Assembly: GCA_013314715.1 (NCBI GenBank)
Contig: JABUFC010000027.1
Location: 1 to 43,786 of the forward strand
Reading direction: 5' to 3'
From: Bacteroidales bacterium
GTDB lineage: Bacteria > Bacteroidota > Bacteroidia > Bacteroidales > GWA2-32-17
DNA length: 43,786 nt
Positions 3,854 to 11,702 of the stretch are shown one piece after another. A program made the translations under genes and the position numbers. The notes beneath the pieces were generated by a model, which was given only the letters and a program-made list of their open reading frames with translations, searched no databases and was not told the DNA's origin. Numbering within the stretch: position 1 is the stretch's first letter; every line of letters begins with the position of its first letter.

Positions 3854-4855
3854 ATGGCTTTCAATTTAAGAAACAGAAGCTTTTTAAAATTATTAGACTT
3901 TACACCCGAAGAAATAAAATTTTTATTAGATCTTTCGGCTGAATTAAAAAAAGCAAAATATGCTGGAACCGAACAGCCACGTTTAAAAGGCAAAAACATT
4001 GTTCTTTTGTTCGAAAAAGATAGTACTCGTACTCGTTGTGCTTTCGAAGTAGCAGCCTATGACCAAGGTGCTCATGTTACCTATATAGGTCCCACAGGTT
4101 CGCAAATGGGCAAAAAAGAATCGATGAAAGATACTGCCCGCGTTCTTGGAAGAATGTACGATGGCATCGAATACCGTGGCTATTCGCAAGAAATTGTTGA
4201 AACCTTAGCTGCTTATTCGGGAGTCCCCGTTTGGAATGGCTTAACTACCGAATTTCACCCCACACAAATTTTAGCCGACTTTTTAACTATGATGGAACAT
4301 AGCGATAAGCCTTTAAATAAAATAACCTTTGCATTTTTAGGCGATGCCAAAAACAATGTAGGCAATTCGCTAATGGTTGGAGCAGCCAAAATGGGTATGG
4401 ATTTTAGAGCTGTGGCTCCTAAAAGCTGTCAACCCGATAAAGAATTAGTAAAAAAATGCCAAGCTATAGCCAAAGAAACGGGTGCAAAAATTACTATTAC
4501 CGACGATATCGAAAAAGGTGTTAAAGGCTGCGATTTCTTATACACCGATGTATGGGTAAGCATGGGAGAACCCGATTCAGTATGGGAAGAACGCATTAAA
4601 TTACTTAAACCCTATCAAGTTAATATGAAAGTACTAAAAATGACCGGAAATCCCAATGTAAAATTCTTACACTGTTTGCCTTCATTCCATAATCGCGAAA
4701 CGGTTATTGGCGAACAAATCTACCAAAAATTTAAAATTGATGCAATGGAAGTTACCGACGAAGTTTTTGAATCTAAACACTCCGTTGTTTTTGACGAAGC
4801 CGAAAACCGAGTTCATACCATTAAGGCCGTTATGGTAGCTACATTAGGCGACTAA
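3854..4855 (+). CDS. argF: ornithine carbamoyltransferase
   Basis: Interconverts ornithine plus carbamoyl phosphate and citrulline plus phosphate. The carbamoyl-phosphate-binding STRTR motif is at residues 57-61, HPTQ at 135-138, the ornithine-loop SMG at 236-238 and HCLP at 273-276. The SMG loop argues for true ornithine specificity rather than the acetyl- or succinylornithine transcarbamylase found in some Bacteroidetes. Length (333) is normal. Its position behind carbamate kinase argues for a catabolic (arcB-type) role, although an anabolic role cannot be excluded from sequence. A perfect Shine-Dalgarno precedes it. A hairpin with a T tract ends the operon just downstream. Confidence 0.95.
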
Positions 4856-5554: not shown

Positions 5555-6404
5555 TTTTTTGTCCCAAATGTAAAATATCATTTCGATCAATACCATTTAT
5601 TTGACAAATTTGATCTACTGTAGTATGATATCGTCTGGCTAAGCTAAATAATGTATCACCCTTTTGAATAACATGAACTTTTGCTTGCCCTTTTTTATTA
5701 TGTTGAGCTATTTGTTTAGCATGATTTTTCTTAGAACTATTTTTCTTACTAAATTTAAAACTTTGTTCTGTTAATAATAGCGTATCTGAATTTAATTTTT
5801 TAGCATTAAAATCAATGAGCAAACGAGGATTAAAAGGCTGCTCTTTATAACGTGTTTCAAAATGCAAATGGTCGCAAGTAGCTCTTCCGGTTCGTCCACC
5901 TAATCCTAATACTTGACCACATTGAACCGTATCGTTAACTCCAACCAAACGCTTTGATAAATGTGCATAAACGGTTTCTATACCATTGTAATGTCTAACT
6001 ACAACAATATTACCGTAACCACTAAAATAACGACTTACTCGGACAATACCATCAAATGCACAATAAACCGAATCTCCTCTGTTTAATTTAATGTCAATAC
6101 CTGTATGTATGCGACGTCCTCGCCAACCAAATTCTGATATAGGATTTCCTGGTACCGGCATTTTGAATTTTGGAAATTGAGGGGTTCGAAGGCAAATTTT
6201 TTCTGTATCGTTAATCATAAAATGAGGATGTCTTGAAGTTCTTAAATAAAGCGTATCCCAACGAAAATCAGAAATATTAGGTACACCCTGAACATAAGTT
6301 GTATCGATAATATCAAAATCGAGGGAATCAACTTTTTGTTGAACTAACTGAGCATTTGTTACAATTACCACCAATACAAAAATTAAAAGTACTAAAAACC
6401 TCAT
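5541..6404 (-). CDS. M23 family metallopeptidase with C-terminal LysM
   Basis: A secreted peptidoglycan endopeptidase-like protein of 287 residues. The signal peptide is at about 1-18. The LytM/M23 domain (about 85-200) carries the zinc ligands H100 and D104 (HTGID) and H181 in the HLHFET motif at 179-184, with H148 also present, so it looks catalytically intact. After a Lys/Ser-rich linker, a LysM peptidoglycan-binding domain fills residues about 242-287 (VHVIQKGDTLFSLARRY). The order catalytic domain then LysM at the extreme end is common in Bacteroidetes. It probably acts in the periplasm on stem peptides. It is convergent with plsY and overlaps it by 14 bases. It is divergent from the flavin-reductase-like gene. 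Confidence 0.9.
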   Translation of the reverse strand: MRFLVLLIFVLVVIVTNAQLVQQKVDSLDFDIIDTTYVQGVPNISDFRWDTLYLRTSRHPHFMINDTEKICLRTPQFPKFKMPVPGNPISEFGWRGRRIHTGIDIKLNRGDSVYCAFDGIVRVSRYFSGYGNIVVVRHYNGIETVYAHLSKRLVGVNDTVQCGQVLGLGGRTGRATCDHLHFETRYKEQPFNPRLLIDFNAKKLNSDTLLLTEQSFKFSKKNSSKKNHAKQIAQHNKKGQAKVHVIQKGDTLFSLARRYHTTVDQICQINGIDRNDILHLGQKIMIP

Positions 6405-6469
6405 AATTTATTTATTATCAATTTATTATTTTTAATTAAATAGCTTTATAAAAACTTTTTAAAAAAAGC

Positions 6470-6477
6470 TAAGTTTG
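6470..6477 (+). promoter_or_regulatory. -7 box towards flavin-reductase-like gene
   Basis: TAAGTTTG matches TAnnTTTG. It would give a leader of about 105 bases before the ATG at 6591. It directly abuts the opposing box at 6478-6485. Confidence 0.45.
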
Positions 6478-6485
6478 CAAAAATA
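6478..6485 (-). promoter_or_regulatory. -7 box towards M23 peptidase gene
   Basis: On the minus strand this reads TATTTTTG, a match to TAnnTTTG, about 74 bases upstream of the peptidase ATG at 6404. Confidence 0.45.
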
Positions 6486-6502
6486 AGAAAAAAGTTAAAA
6501 AG

Positions 6503-6516
6503 AACTTGCACAAGTT
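6503..6516. repeat. short inverted repeat in divergent promoter region
   Basis: AACTTG and CAAGTT are separated by two bases, a perfect 6-bp dyad next to the overlapping divergent promoters. It could be an operator, but there is no other support. Confidence 0.3.
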
Positions 6517-6551
6517 AGAGTTTTTTAACACTTTTGTTGACGAAGCATAGT

Positions 6552-6571
6552 TTGTAACATTTTTCTTACAA
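6552..6571. repeat. inverted repeat in leader of flavin-reductase-like gene
   Basis: TTGTAA (6552-6557) and TTACAA (6566-6571) form a 6-bp dyad with an 8-base spacer, 20 bases before the ATG at 6591. This could be an operator or chance in AT-rich DNA. Confidence 0.25.
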
Positions 6572-6590
6572 TAACTATAATAAATTGAAT

Positions 6591-7091
6591 ATGAAAGACA
6601 TAAATCCATTAGTCATATCCCTACGTATTTTTGACGAAATAGGTCAAAATGGTTTTTTGCTAACTTCTGGTATTTTAGAACATCATAATAGTATGACCGT
6701 AGGATGGGCTAGCTTAGGATATTTATGGCGAAAACCAATGGCGTTTGTTTATGTTCGTCCGCAACGGTACACCTATGAGTTTATGGAAAAATATAATTTT
6801 TTTTCTATAAATTTTTTCAACCCGAATTATAGCGATATACTCCATTTATTCGGAACAAAATCTGGACGTGAAATCGATAAAATGCATCCACAAAAAATAA
6901 CTCCTGTTGATTTTGAACATAAAGCAGTTTATTACAACGAAGCAAAATATGTTTTTATTTGTAGAAAAGTTTATTATGAAGATTTGAAACCCGAAAATTT
7001 TGTTGATAAATTGTTTTTGAAAAATTATCCTTTACATGACTTTCATCGTATATATTATGGGGAAATTGAAAAAGCTTTAGTATCTTTATAA
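6591..7091 (+). CDS. flavin reductase-like (FMN-binding split barrel) protein
   Basis: A 166-residue protein of the flavin-reductase/DIM6-NTAB type. It shows the family pattern: the early GFLLTSG, then SMTVGWASLGYLWRKPMAFV (about 35-54), then YTYEFMEKYNFFSINFF (about 60-76). These segments form the FMN pocket in the family. The substrate is unknown; relatives reduce FMN or bind it without being reductases. I chose the ATG at 6591 over an in-frame TTG at 6585. The stop codon is one base from the next ATG (7093), so it is surely co-transcribed and probably translationally coupled with the nucleoside-hydrolase/FmdE fusion. Confidence 0.8.
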   Translation: MKDINPLVISLRIFDEIGQNGFLLTSGILEHHNSMTVGWASLGYLWRKPMAFVYVRPQRYTYEFMEKYNFFSINFFNPNYSDILHLFGTKSGREIDKMHPQKITPVDFEHKAVYYNEAKYVFICRKVYYEDLKPENFVDKLFLKNYPLHDFHRIYYGEIEKALVSL

Positions 7092-7092
7092 A

Positions 7093-8535
7093 ATGAAAAT
7101 TCTACTTTATATATTATTGCTTATACCCATTGCAACATTTAGTCAACAAACTAAAAATAAAGTCATTATTGATAGTGATGCAGGCACCGACGATTATAGA
7201 TCGCTTTTATTATTTAGTCAGATAAAAAATTATGAAATAAAAGCCATTACACTCAGCGATGGAACTCTTTTCCCTGATAAAGGAGCTGTTAGAGTTACAC
7301 AACTTATACATTGTTTAAATAATAAAAATATTTTCGTGGGTGTTGGCAGAAAAACCATGTACACCAAACCCGTATGGAGATTATTTGCAGAAAAAGTTCC
7401 ATGGGGCGATTGCTCTATAAAAGATAGCATCAAAGAATTTCCTAACGCTACTCAAATTATCAATAAAATTTTAGACGAATCGTCTCAAAAATCGATCACA
7501 TTTATTTGCTTAGGATCGCTTAGTAATCTGTATGAAACACTCATGATTAATCCAAAAGCTGTCGACAAAATAAAGGAAGTTATTTGGTATAACTCAACCA
7601 ATATAAAACAAGGTACCAATTATACTTTTGAGCCCAAAGCAGCCGATTATATTCTTTCTCTACCAATTAAAATAAAAATAATCCATGCCATAAACGAAAA
7701 GCACGTAAACTATGATACAGCTTTCATCAATAAAATAAAATCGATAAAAAATAAACAAGCTCAATTAATAGCCCAACAACTTGAATTTCTGCGTATAAAA
7801 AACAATTTGTCGCACTTACAATGTTGGGACGAGTTATGCGCTATTTATATGGCAAACCCCAAAATATATACATTTAAAGAAAAAACAGAAAATCCCTTTG
7901 TGCAAGTTTTATACGACTACGATACAACTCAAGTGCGAACCACTTATCTACAAATTTTGAAAGGCACTTGTAAACTAGCAAGTGGTGTAGTTTTTTCAGA
8001 ATTCCCTACCGACAGCTTTTATCTGCAAAACGATGTGTTCGAAGTAAAAGAAAAGCTAATTGAAAAATATGGCTACGACGAATTTAAAGCAGCAATCTTA
8101 ACATCCGAAATTCATAACCACTTGGGAATTTACTCCATTATAGGTGTAAAAATGGGCATTAAAGCGATGGAACTACTTAACGCATCAAATTCTGAAATTA
8201 AAATAAAATCATTTGCAGGAAATACTCCTCCGCTCTCTTGTCTTAACGATGGCTTAATGGTCTCAACCGGAAGTACTCCCGCATATAATCTTCTAAAGAT
8301 TGATACCACACAGCTCTTCCCATCGGCTATTTTTTGTTTTAAAAACCAATGTATTAAAATTACCCTTAAAAAAGAAATATACGAACATATAACAAAGTAC
8401 CTCAATGATGCTGTTTTAAAATATTCTTTAAGCTCTGATGCTTATTGGAACTATGTCCGCAAAAAAGCTATCGAAGAATGGCTTAATTTAAATAGAAATA
8501 ACATTTTCGATATTGAAAAAACAAATTCAAACTAA
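7093..8535 (+). CDS. secreted nucleoside hydrolase-like / FmdE-like fusion protein
   Basis: A 480-residue two-domain protein with a signal peptide (1 to about 18). Residues about 22-290 resemble inosine-uridine nucleoside hydrolases: the calcium-site motif DSDAGTDD is at 27-34, and the second conserved block reads CWDELCAIY around D246. The family His that precedes this Asp is a Trp here (W245), so ordinary nucleosidase chemistry is doubtful. Residues about 325-440 resemble the FmdE domain: E-I-H-N-H at 339-343, then GIYSIIGVKMGIKAMELL, then SCLNDGLMVSTGST with C383. The C-terminal helix region is Lys rich. Both domains appear complete, with no frame break. Coupling to the preceding flavin-reductase-like gene suggests a shared redox or metal-linked task in the periplasm. 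Domain assignment is good; function is unknown. Confidence 0.75.
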   Translation: MKILLYILLLIPIATFSQQTKNKVIIDSDAGTDDYRSLLLFSQIKNYEIKAITLSDGTLFPDKGAVRVTQLIHCLNNKNIFVGVGRKTMYTKPVWRLFAEKVPWGDCSIKDSIKEFPNATQIINKILDESSQKSITFICLGSLSNLYETLMINPKAVDKIKEVIWYNSTNIKQGTNYTFEPKAADYILSLPIKIKIIHAINEKHVNYDTAFINKIKSIKNKQAQLIAQQLEFLRIKNNLSHLQCWDELCAIYMANPKIYTFKEKTENPFVQVLYDYDTTQVRTTYLQILKGTCKLASGVVFSEFPTDSFYLQNDVFEVKEKLIEKYGYDEFKAAILTSEIHNHLGIYSIIGVKMGIKAMELLNASNSEIKIKSFAGNTPPLSCLNDGLMVSTGSTPAYNLLKIDTTQLFPSAIFCFKNQCIKITLKKEIYEHITKYLNDAVLKYSLSSDAYWNYVRKKAIEEWLNLNRNNIFDIEKTNSN

Positions 8536-8566
8536 TTTAATAATTATACTTTTTTAAAGTAAATTT

Positions 8567-8596
8567 TTGCAGTTTTTAATTTTTTTTGTACGTTTG
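8567..8596 (+). promoter_or_regulatory. promoter of porP-like gene, apparently leaderless
   Basis: TTG at 8567-8569 and TACGTTTG at 8589-8596 are separated by 19 bases, which fits the Bacteroidetes -33/-7 arrangement. The ATG is only 5 bases beyond the -7 box. Confidence 0.55.
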
Positions 8597-8601
8597 CTCA
8601 A

Positions 8602-9603
8602 ATGAAACTTACCTTAACTACAATATTAGTTTTTTCTCTGTATTTTGTAAATGCTCAAGATATTCATTTTTCGCAATATTTCTATTCACCCTTAAACCTA
8701 AATCCTTCTAATACTGGCCATTTTGATGGAGATTGGCGTTTTGTAAATAATTATCGTAACCAGTGGAAAGCTCTTTCTATTCCTTACCGAACCATTGGCG
8801 TTAGTTACGAACATCAACTATATATTTATTCTGAACAATTTAGCTATGGTTTCAATGTAATTCATGATCAATCAGGACCAGCAGGTTTAACCATAAATAA
8901 ATTGTTTGCATCATTGGCTTATCATAAAAAAATAAATACCAATAATTTCCATTTTGGTATACAAGGGGGTATGGTTTTCAAAAATTTTAACCTCAGTGAA
9001 CTTACTTTTCCGTCTCAATTTGATATGACTTTGGGATATTTTAATAATCAATTAAATAACAATGAAACAAATCTTACTTCGCATATAAATTATCCCGACA
9101 TTAATTTAGGAACTCTCTGGCAAAAAAGATTTCAACATTTTGAAACCGAATTAGGCATCTCAGCTTTTCATTTAATTATGCCCAAAGAAAGTTTCAACGA
9201 TAATAACAATCATTTACCTATACGCTATATTATACATACGGGTTTAATGTTTCCCATTCATTCATTTTATTTTAAACCTCAAGCATTTGAGATGCGTCAA
9301 CATAAAGCTACCGATATTATTTTAGGAAGTGAAATAGGCTTTAATTTAACTAAGTTCCCTATGGGAATGAAACGCATTTTTGCAGGCATCTTTATTCGAA
9401 ACGATTTCAATACAGCTTTTGATGCCTCCATTTTTATGCTTGGACTTCAGATTAAACAACTTCAAATAACTTTTAGTTATGATATTAATACAAGCCCTTT
9501 GTCTGTTGCTACCAATAAAAAAGGAGCGTTCGAATTTTCGTTAATTTATGCTTCAAAAAGCACCATTCCTAAAAAAATCACCTTACCATGCGATCGTATG
9601 TAA
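8602..9603 (+). CDS. PorP/SprF family type IX secretion membrane protein
   Basis: An outer-membrane beta-barrel of 333 residues. The signal peptide is at 1-18 (ending VNAQ), directly followed by the family hallmark DIHFSQYFYSPLNLNPSNTG and then WRFVNNYRNQWKAL. These are classic PorP/SprF openings. Members assist secretion or attachment of particular type IX substrates, often those with type B sorting domains. It overlaps the next gene by 16 bases (start at 9588), the usual PorP then OmpA/PD40 pairing. No sign of truncation is seen. Which of several paralogues this is cannot be told, so no symbol is given. Confidence 0.92.
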   Translation: MKLTLTTILVFSLYFVNAQDIHFSQYFYSPLNLNPSNTGHFDGDWRFVNNYRNQWKALSIPYRTIGVSYEHQLYIYSEQFSYGFNVIHDQSGPAGLTINKLFASLAYHKKINTNNFHFGIQGGMVFKNFNLSELTFPSQFDMTLGYFNNQLNNNETNLTSHINYPDINLGTLWQKRFQHFETELGISAFHLIMPKESFNDNNNHLPIRYIIHTGLMFPIHSFYFKPQAFEMRQHKATDIILGSEIGFNLTKFPMGMKRIFAGIFIRNDFNTAFDASIFMLGLQIKQLQITFSYDINTSPLSVATNKKGAFEFSLIYASKSTIPKKITLPCDRM

Positions 9604-11702
9604 TTTTATTTTTACTACTTATTTTAAAAGCAAATGCTTTTTGCCAACCCTCTGAAACCATTAAATATTTAAATCCTTGGCAAATAAAGAGCTTTGCAAA
9701 AAATTCTGAAAGAATTGGTGATATATATTCTGCTATTGATTATTATGAAGAACTTCATAAACGTAACAATAAAAATGCTGATATCAATTTCAAGCTTGCA
9801 CAATTATACTTTAAGTCGCGAAATTATTCAATGGCGCATGAATATTTTACGTATGTTTATGATACCGATAAAGAAACTTACCCCGATGCTCTTTTTTATA
9901 GAGGTTTAATGAAAAAAATGATGGGCGACTATAAAGGTGCAAAAGAAGATTTTTTGGCTTTTAATAAATTAGTCAAAGGCACCAAATTCGCTGATGACTA
10001 CAAAAAGAGGTTAAAAAACGAACTCGATGGTTGCGATTTAGCCTTAAAACTAAAAGAAAAACCTCTTGATGTATTTATTCTTCATCTTGATACAAGTATA
10101 AATAAAGCTCATGCCGAAGCATCTCCCTACCCAATCAGTGGAAATGCTATTTTATATTCATCACTTAAAGCAGATAAGCTTTTTTATGTTGATGCAAACA
10201 ATGATACTTCTATAATACCAGCCCGACAAATTTATATTGCCAAAAAGAAAGGCGAAAAATGGTTTTCCAATGGTCTTTTCAATGACCTAATAAATGAACC
10301 AGGAGTAAATGTGTTAAATCCTGCTTTATCACCATCGGGCAATCGCTTATTCTTTAATAAATGCAAACAAAACTGGAAAAATAAAATGATTTGTTCCATT
10401 TACATGAGCGAAAAAATAGAAAACGAATGGACTACCCCAGTTTTATTAGGTAATGATATCAATAATCCCAAATATACCTCAACACAACCTACCGTTGGAG
10501 TAGATTCTAAAACACATAACGATGTATTATACTTTGTTAGCGACCGCGAAGGCGGAAAAGGAGGTCTTGATATTTGGTACTCCGTTTATAACGCTAAAAA
10601 AGGTGAATTTAAACCTCCTAAAAATGCAGGAAACAAAATTAACACGTATGGCGATGAAATGACTCCATTTTATGATATTGAAAGCCATACACTTTATTTT
10701 AGTTCCGACGGATGGCCAAGTATAGGTGGATTAGATATTTTTAAAGCACAAGGAGAACTAACTCAATTTAGTAATCCTGAAAATATAGGTTTCCCAATAA
10801 ATTCATCGGTTGACGATATTTATTGTGTGACCTCAAAAAATCGCGAAGGTGGCTTTTTTGTTTCAAATCGTAAAGGAACGGTTGCTTTACTAAACGAAAC
10901 TTGTTGCGATGATATATGGGAATATCGTTGGACAAATTTTATTCAAGTTGCTATTACAGGTAAAATATATGCCATCAAAGACAGCACAATTTATCAACAG
11001 CTCGAAAAACAAATTGTTGATAAAAATTTTATTGAAGAATTAGACTCAACCACCGAAAAGGTAAATCCTCTACCCGATAAAAAAGTGGATCTGTACTTAC
11101 AACAAGGTAACGAACGTATTTATATTAAGAGTATCTCAACTAATGAGAATGGTGAATTTTTCTTCAATCTAGAACCTCAAAAAGAATACAAAATACTAAT
11201 AGATAATTATGGTTTCTTCAATAAAGAGATATCGGTAAGCACTATGAATATTACTCATTCAGACACCTTACATGCCGATGCCATATATATAAATGTCATA
11301 CCTCTTGAACCCGTTGTTATTAAAAATATATACTACGAATTTTCAAAGTGGAACCTAACCGATTCATCAAAAGCTGTTATAGATCGTACATTATATAAAT
11401 TATTAGTGGATAATCCACGTATTGTTGTAGAAATCTCATCGCATACCGATAGCATTAGCAGCGACGAATACAATTTAAAGCTTTCGCAAAAAAGAGCCGA
11501 AAGTGTTGTAAAATATTTAATTAGTAAAGGTATAGACAAAGATCGATTGGTAGCAAAAGGCTATGGCGAAAGCAAACCTATTGCTCCTAATACCAACCCC
11601 GATGGCACCGATAACCCCGAAGGACGTCAGAAAAACCGACGTACCGAGTTTAGAATTATTGGCTCTATTGACCAGTACTCGAAAATTATTTATGAGGAAT
11701 AA
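9588..11702 (+). CDS. OmpA family protein with TPR and PD40 repeats
   Basis: A 704-residue envelope protein. In order: signal peptide (1-19), TPR-like helices (about 25-145, with YFKSRNYSMAHEYF), PD40/WD40-like beta-propeller repeats (about 175-440, with NPALSPSGNRLFF and LYFVSDREGGKGGLDIW), a carboxypeptidase-regulatory-like beta sandwich (about 487-545), and a C-terminal OmpA peptidoglycan-binding domain (about 575-700, with SSHTDSISSDEYNLKLSQKR and the NRRTEFRI end). This is the PorE-like architecture that tethers type IX components to peptidoglycan. Overlap with the PorP/SprF gene suggests coupled translation and a shared complex. Many paralogues exist in one genome, so a specific name is not justified. 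Confidence 0.92.
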   Translation: MRSYVILFLLLILKANAFCQPSETIKYLNPWQIKSFAKNSERIGDIYSAIDYYEELHKRNNKNADINFKLAQLYFKSRNYSMAHEYFTYVYDTDKETYPDALFYRGLMKKMMGDYKGAKEDFLAFNKLVKGTKFADDYKKRLKNELDGCDLALKLKEKPLDVFILHLDTSINKAHAEASPYPISGNAILYSSLKADKLFYVDANNDTSIIPARQIYIAKKKGEKWFSNGLFNDLINEPGVNVLNPALSPSGNRLFFNKCKQNWKNKMICSIYMSEKIENEWTTPVLLGNDINNPKYTSTQPTVGVDSKTHNDVLYFVSDREGGKGGLDIWYSVYNAKKGEFKPPKNAGNKINTYGDEMTPFYDIESHTLYFSSDGWPSIGGLDIFKAQGELTQFSNPENIGFPINSSVDDIYCVTSKNREGGFFVSNRKGTVALLNETCCDDIWEYRWTNFIQVAITGKIYAIKDSTIYQQLEKQIVDKNFIEELDSTTEKVNPLPDKKVDLYLQQGNERIYIKSISTNENGEFFFNLEPQKEYKILIDNYGFFNKEISVSTMNITHSDTLHADAIYINVIPLEPVVIKNIYYEFSKWNLTDSSKAVIDRTLYKLLVDNPRIVVEISSHTDSISSDEYNLKLSQKRAESVVKYLISKGIDKDRLVAKGYGESKPIAPNTNPDGTDNPEGRQKNRRTEFRIIGSIDQYSKIIYEE

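Follow-up and report, generated by a model that had tools for sequence, protein, structure and literature searches.

A predicted exported fusion of nucleoside hydrolase-like and FmdE domains in Bacteroidota, and its association with nickel-uptake and cobalamin-related genes

The window analyzed here, a contig of 43,786 nucleotides from a Bacteroidales bacterium, encodes a protein in which a nucleoside hydrolase (NH)-like domain is followed by an FmdE domain, and because many relatives of this fusion lie in nickel-uptake clusters, and a few in B12 clusters, it probably takes part in metal handling outside the inner membrane, of a metal as such or in a complex, and is not merely a broken enzyme. 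The observations behind this are the two folds, the presence of both metal sites in 88 of 88 homologs (two of the calcium ligands partly through the way the homologs were collected), and the linkage to TonB-dependent receptors, to NikR, to CbiM/CbiQ-type (NikM/NikQ-type) ECF genes and to NikR-type operators. We give roughly even odds (about 0.5) that the fusion is an exported, periplasmic accessory of nickel (or cobalt/corrinoid) acquisition, in which the FmdE domain would hold the metal and the NH domain would bind or cleave a ribosyl ligand. What is new is the nickel and cobalamin gene context of the relatives, which is not visible from the single window. It places the NH fold, unexpectedly, in a metal-uptake setting of Bacteroidota, gut species included, and, since the fusion is widespread and often near NikR-type operators, it makes a role of FmdE in nickel or cobalt handling testable.

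Table 1. Positions of the fusion gene, its domains and associated elements (window coordinates unless a locus is named)
Feature	Position	Strand	Evidence or remark
NH-FmdE fusion gene, 480 aa	7093..8535	+	Open reading frame, Pfam, AlphaFold model
NH-like domain, residues ~22-292	7156..7968	+	PF01156 E 1.9e-20; Z ~30 to NHs; conservation
NH-domain key residues D27, D29, D33, D34, W104, W165, N176, H241, W245, D246			
FmdE domain, residues 305-480	8005..8532	+	PF02663 E 6.8e-12; Z 16.1 to 2gvi
Predicted FmdE metal ligands H341, H343, C383			Gly345 at the Cys-ligand place of classic FmdE
Flavin_Reduct-domain gene	6585..7091	+	PF01613 E 1.2e-10; ends one base before fusion
Cobalamin riboswitch, then DUF4465 gene, PKD-domain gene, fusion	L053 1895-2103; L067 1702-1911		Gut Bacteroidales/Alistipes genomes

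An earlier sequence-only reading had described an exported-looking protein with DSDAGTDD at residues 27 to 34, W245-D246, HNH at 341 to 343 and C383, encoded one base from a flavin-reductase-like gene, and the translation and Pfam bear out the motifs, the two domains and the one-base gap (Table 1). The exported look comes from the hydrophobic N terminus, residues 1 to 18, which resemble an export signal by eye. The fusion is the sole match to PF01156 and the sole match to PF02663 in the window's genome. A flavin-reductase-like homolog precedes the fusion in the other three same-genus genomes searched, and so in 4/4 members: in L020 (=L003, G003), in L027 (=L004, G002; PF01613 E 3.1e-12) and, by evident similarity and without a score, in L002 (G001). 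A scan of positions 6300 to 9700 gave 27 promoter-like sites versus 19.0 ± 4.2, and 2 terminator-like sites versus 1.8.

Structure prediction and comparison with known folds, which the sequence-only reading had suggested as a check, agree with both domain assignments (Z ~30 for the NH half and 16.1 for the FmdE half). The N-terminal half scores 74.2 bits with IU_nuc_hydro (residues 24 to 262), above the curated Pfam cut-off of 34.2, and in the AlphaFold2 model of the fusion (mean pLDDT 92.3, from 78 aligned sequences) residues 21 to 292 match the NH structures 3g5i (Z 30.8) and 2mas (Z 30.7) over 262 to 268 residues in the best rows, as well as those of Trypanosoma vivax (1hp0, Z 29.4) and Caenorhabditis elegans (5mj7, Z 26.8), so that both score and fold place it in PF01156. 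The C-terminal half scores 46 bits with the FmdE family (residues 340 to 473; Pfam cut-off 22.9), and residues 305 to 480 (176 residues), modeled alone with a pLDDT of 94.2, match the three solved FmdE structures 2gvi (Z 16.1), 2glz (Z 15.3) and 3d00 (Z 12.9), with the next entry at 5.0, which together establish membership of PF02663. That this domain might not be FmdE, which the sequence-only reading had named as one result that would undo it, is rejected by these matches.

NHs fall into groups that differ in how the leaving group is activated. According to the available text of PMC8910321, group I enzymes carry two His, one immediately preceding the final Asp of the Ca site and one in the β3-α3 loop, in group II two Trp replace both His and the purine is activated by stacking, group III enzymes carry a Cys, and the inactive NH-fold proteins XopQ and Sde_0182 retain the Ca site. 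In the window protein the DxDxxxDD motif (D27 to D34) and the distant Ca-binding Asp (D246) are present, and the view that the Ca site is kept holds throughout the family, in which D29, D34 and D246 are found in 88/88 homologs, with the invariance of D29 and D34 partly selected because most homologs came from a DxDxxxDD or CNDG pattern scan. The group I His is absent, its place being taken by W245, and His occurs at this position in 0 of the 88 homologs, in agreement with the proposed replacement of the proton donor. Trp at both His positions, W245 and W104, gives the window protein the group II signature at the level of sequence; hhalign with a group I-type NH from a relative (L109) sets W245 on the first His and W104 on the second, W104 being placed only within one residue, since the phmmer alignment to RihA (4wr2) shifts a gap by one. 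Group II enzymes also form dimers and have two additional helices after strand 3 and before strand 4, and in the crossover of the model (residues 85 to 118) one helix of at least 4 residues is assigned, at 96 to 101.

The further proposal that acid catalysis is lost stands only for the donor His itself. Its absence does not equal a loss of leaving-group activation, because group II NHs use Trp stacking and the window protein has the corresponding pair W245 and W104, and as a firm conclusion the loss is rejected. H241, a His in 63/88 homologs, could be an alternative donor near the site. A fixed role for W245 is likewise rejected, as Trp is found there in only 56/88 homologs, beside Cys in 13, Ala in 5, Gly and Thr in 3 each, Phe, Tyr and Ser in 2 each, and Lys and Val in 1 each; of the two residues whose invariance had been put forward as a check, C383 is invariant (88/88) and W245 is not. 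The 13 homologs with Cys are group III-like at residue 245. Ten of these 13 Cys245 loci have CbiM/CbiQ-type or DUF6702 neighbors (L038, L041, L042, L045, L046, L050, L052, L056, L070 and L081). The Glu of the E-A-N motif in the group I-type L109 corresponds to Gly174 in the family (82/93 rows), so the ribose pocket may be more open on its 5′ side. The window protein thus shares with the group II enzymes (IAG-NH of T. vivax and T. brucei) the NH fold, the Ca ligands and the Trp pair, and differs from them in being exported-looking and FmdE-fused, in the variability of residue 245 within its family and in having Gly174 where L109 has Glu. With XopQ and Sde_0182 it shares the retained Ca site and an unusual leaving-group residue, whereas it retains the Trp pair and has FmdE as fusion partner; since these inactive proteins keep the Ca site as well, activity of the fusion cannot be asserted.

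The FmdE crystal structures of Axelrod et al. (PMC2954224, available portion) bind Zn or Zn/Ni through four residues, in one member numbered His15, His17, Cys19 and Cys55. There most PF02663 genes are said to adjoin metal-ion transporters, and a role in metal-ion transport is suggested. These ligands correspond to H341, H343, G345 and C383 in the fusion, so that instead of the four-ligand site the sequence has a three-ligand His-His-Cys site. Relative to 2gvi and 2glz the fold, the His-x-His, the Cys of the second motif, the Asp (D386) and the Thr (T395) are shared, whereas the Cys19 position is Gly in 88/88 homologs, the domain is placed behind an NH domain, and the model stops at the core domain, without the zinc finger. 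At the Gln61 position of FmdE the window protein has Met389, compared with Gln in 84/88 homologs. A solved member, Q2LQ23_SYNAS (3d00), also does without two ligands, according to the same portion of PMC2954224.

The named genome collection has at least 410 candidate stretches with a gene for a relative, which puts the fusion far above chance, and from these 80 loci were kept. By record title they are mostly Bacteroidota (Bacteroidales, Alistipes, Tannerella, Odoribacter laneus), with further hosts in Desulfobacteraceae, Chlorobiota, Aminicenantes and Abyssobacteria; among viral records nine stretches fit a pattern and none encodes a relative. Conservation was counted over 88 distinct sequences of 93 rows (5 duplicates out), except for the Gly174 count, which uses all 93. 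Besides the three Asp of the Ca site, N176, H341, H343, G345, C383 and D386 are invariant in all 88, W104 is found in 86 and W165 in 81. One alignment (A2) comprises the window and 77/80 loci (without L046, L052 and L091), and a second (A3) 50 of its 78 rows; in the midpoint-rooted tree the four sequences of the window's genus cluster (97/89) with seven others, five of which lie beside DUF4198. Neither half of the fusion is always kept at the sequence level. L017 has the NH part only, without FmdE, and adjoins a receptor, with NikR on the same contig, and L018 is a truncated FmdE fragment of 137 residues from which the first His is missing; its neighbor is a NicO-like permease rich in His, and the genome also has a full copy (L010). 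In L014 (853-2208), encoded in the order nikR, fusion, TonB receptor, the NH metal motif is degenerate and the FmdE motifs are intact, and from this one locus we infer that the FmdE half is closer to nickel than the NH half.

Neighboring genes were analyzed in 76/80 loci; L053, L067, L071 and L083, in which a longer overlapping open reading frame was preferred, were excluded and inspected by hand. Recurrent neighbors, named from one representative of each family, were TonB-dependent receptors (33 loci), NikR (14), ABC ATPases (13), a DsbD_2/NicO-like permease (8), CbiM, CbiQ, PDGLE proteins and DUF6702 (6 each), DUF4198 and a tetrapyrrole-methylase homolog (5 each) and flavin reductase (3, plus the window), counts that are not independent of the clustering because those clusters also served as the training set of the neighbor HMMs, nor of each other because the loci are related. 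DUF4198 may correspond to NikK, the CarboxypepD_reg protein to NikL and PDGLE to NikN. The NikR name has a match over the cut-off (representative L064: PF08753 E 4.8e-29; NCBIfam NikR equivalog 149 bits versus a cut-off of 105), and that of the permease is weak, coming from DsbD_2 in Pfam, with the NCBIfam nickel/cobalt transporter model far below its cut-off. A likely nickel/cobalt-uptake gene is present in 23/76 loci, in 16 through NikR or CbiM and in 7 only through the less certain permease or DUF4198, and in 22/76 the gene immediately before the fusion, in the same orientation, is that of a receptor, which overlaps the fusion or is separated from it by no more than 145 bp. There is no such metal gene in 53/76 loci, and neither metal gene nor receptor in 35/76, within the available stretch, many contigs ending early. 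By our own estimate, from 14 NikR hits in 60 genomes, about 0.05 NikR neighbors would be expected by chance in 722 kb, compared with the 14 observed. The relatedness of the loci shows on the tree, where a minimum of 9 changes accounts for the metal-gene label, compared with a mean of 13.6 when shuffled.

Predicted operators point in the same direction. With the delta-proteobacterial NikR box consensus GTGTTAC-N13/14-GTAACAC (PMC545781, available text), and with up to one mismatch allowed, 11 sites were predicted in 9/80 loci, versus a mean of 0.55 and a maximum of 3 over 60 permuted half-sites. All 11 have a spacing of 13 or 14, and within the range 6 to 21 the remaining spacings yielded one site each at 18, 19 and 20 and none elsewhere. 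In 8 of the 9 loci the box lies just upstream of nikR (L047, L052 and L078), of the receptor (L049, L055 and L099, in the last starting 125 to 135 bp upstream) or of the fusion itself (L034, starting 125 to 135 bp upstream and adjoining a divergent nikR), or, in L033, in the spacer that separates the receptor from a flavin reductase, itself a homolog of the gene next to the fusion in the window, which links the flavin-reductase-like gene to NikR-type regulation. The odd one of the nine is L046, whose NikR-like box (4185-4212) is not upstream of a called plus-strand gene. Boxes at exactly 2 or 3 mismatches showed no excess over shuffles, the enterobacterial NikR motif gave 8 sites at 2 mismatches versus 6.8 expected and none better, and the window has no box at up to 2 mismatches. 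Some fusion homologs sit, with matching operators, in clusters of the kind known for NikR-regulated nickel uptake (TonB receptor, NikMNQO, NikKMLQO), whereas the window itself is without the typical neighbors. An NH/FmdE component is not described for such systems in the available portions of PMC2667541, PMC11247825 and PMC545781, and a literature search with most subscription papers outside its scope found no paper joining nucleoside hydrolase with FmdE, FmdE with nickel and TonB, or nucleoside hydrolase with nickel and NikR.

The association extends to whole genomes. Of 60 genomes, made up of that of the window and 59 related ones, 17 have a match to the fusion, the window's own included, with partial matches in G023, G039 and G049 and a degenerate NH half in G052. 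NikR occurs in 9/17 genomes with a match versus 4/43 without (p 0.0006), and outside the window's own family in 7/12 versus 4/38 (p 0.002); the NicO-like permease occurs in 8/17 versus 4/43 (p 0.002; set at E < 1e-30, 12 of 18 genomes). Co-occurrence was not significant for CbiM (3/17 versus 4/43, p 0.39) or for NiFe hydrogenase (8/17 versus 9/43, p 0.06; based on the 17 genomes that pass the cut-off, compared with 27 at E ≤ 0.001). In the window's genome, which is 99.5% complete, NikR, LarC, CbiM, NiFe hydrogenase and the NicO-like permease are all without a match, and a search with a single receptor gave no close relative (best E 1.3e-7, with segments at 23 to 33% identity), so that the inference of nickel is firmer for the family than for the window's organism. 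The same-genus genome G002 has matches to NikR, the NicO-like permease and the hydrogenase family together on contig C21.

For the preferred reading, a periplasmic accessory of metal acquisition, the following sequence of events can be envisaged. A TonB-dependent receptor would carry the metal, or a metal-ligand complex, to the periplasm, where the FmdE domain would accept the metal at its open His-His-Cys site, Gly345 possibly freeing the fourth position for water or an incoming ligand. The NH domain, through its Ca site and Trp pair, would bind and possibly hydrolyze the ribosyl-bearing ligand of the metal, and the metal would pass on to an inner-membrane carrier. The metal may vary by lineage, since both nickel and corrinoid/cobalt settings are found in the family. 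In a rival reading, that of corrinoid (vitamin B12) or cobalt uptake, a BtuB-like receptor would import a corrinoid, the NH domain would dock on its nucleoside part, and the metal in the window's lineage would be cobalt, not nickel. A cobalamin riboswitch (Rfam) precedes the DUF4465-PKD-fusion genes in L053 and L067, and DUF4465 proteins bind B12 according to the available text of PMC13398666; the receptors of L055 and L017, the two tested, score best with the TonB-B12 model, at 125 and 106.9 bits and so far below its cut-off of 599.7; tetrapyrrole-methylase homologs lie beside the fusion in five loci; and the window's genome, without matches to the nickel genes searched, has two B12-binding-domain genes over the cut-off. 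Riboswitches occur in only 3/80 loci, however, that of L071 being downstream of the fusion, and Rfam gave only two tRNAs in the window, compared with NikR in 14/76 loci and NikR boxes in 9/80, and we consider this rival reading rather unlikely. The available part of the BtuH paper (PMC8941943) makes no mention of a hydrolase or of nickel.

The NH half may instead have no catalytic activity and act, in the manner of XopQ or Sde_0182, as a binding domain structured by Ca, with FmdE doing the work alone, a reading that is compatible with the role in metal acquisition and not with the NH mechanism proposed for it. The Ca site is retained in inactive proteins known to have the NH fold (PMC8910321, available text), L014, located between NikR and a receptor, has intact FmdE motifs and no longer the NH metal motif, residue 245 varies to Ala, Gly, Thr, Val and Lys, and the Glu of the L109 motif is replaced by Gly174; the invariance of D29, D34, D246 and N176 (partly selected for the first two) and the near-invariance of Trp104 speak against it, and we regard it as doubtful, though a serious contender. 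The Trp pair, the kept Ca site and the absence of any other PF01156 match in the genome would also suit an ordinary exported purine-type nucleoside hydrolase used for scavenging, with FmdE as a metal-binding appendage, but the 20 annotated neighbor representatives include no nucleoside transporter or kinase family, and with the NikR linkage and the variable residue 245 this becomes quite improbable. A more specific chemistry, which we consider a long shot, is a two-step periplasmic demetallation of a ribosyl-containing metal cofactor or metallophore, e.g. one related to the nickel-pincer nucleotide or an adenosyl corrinoid, in which the NH domain would hold the ribose diol via Ca and open the N-glycosidic bond and the FmdE His-His-Cys site would take the metal. 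A charged pyridinium leaving group would need no acid for bond cleavage, and a ribosyl ligand of the pyridinium type would fit a pocket that holds the diol through Ca and is open toward 5′. The nickel-pincer nucleotide belongs, in modified form, to the pyridinium mononucleotides (PMC11796402, available text), and the distribution of LarC, in 6/17 genomes with the fusion versus 3/43 without (p 0.01), is weak support for this idea, 11/17 being without LarC. Demetallation, if true, would explain together the missing acid, the missing 5′-side Glu and the nickel and B12 contexts.

Some features of the surrounding genes are also of note. In L065, L066, L076, L077 and L097 the fusion, DUF4198 and a TonB receptor are accompanied by tetrapyrrole-methylase-domain genes, and the N terminus of the L065/L066-type protein resembles an export signal by eye, which is odd for a SAM-dependent enzyme. 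Downstream of the fusion, the window has first a gene of PorP/SprF type and then a TPR-PD40-OmpA gene (8602-11702), and in G001 (L002) the gene after the fusion differs from the PorP/SprF-type gene of the window.
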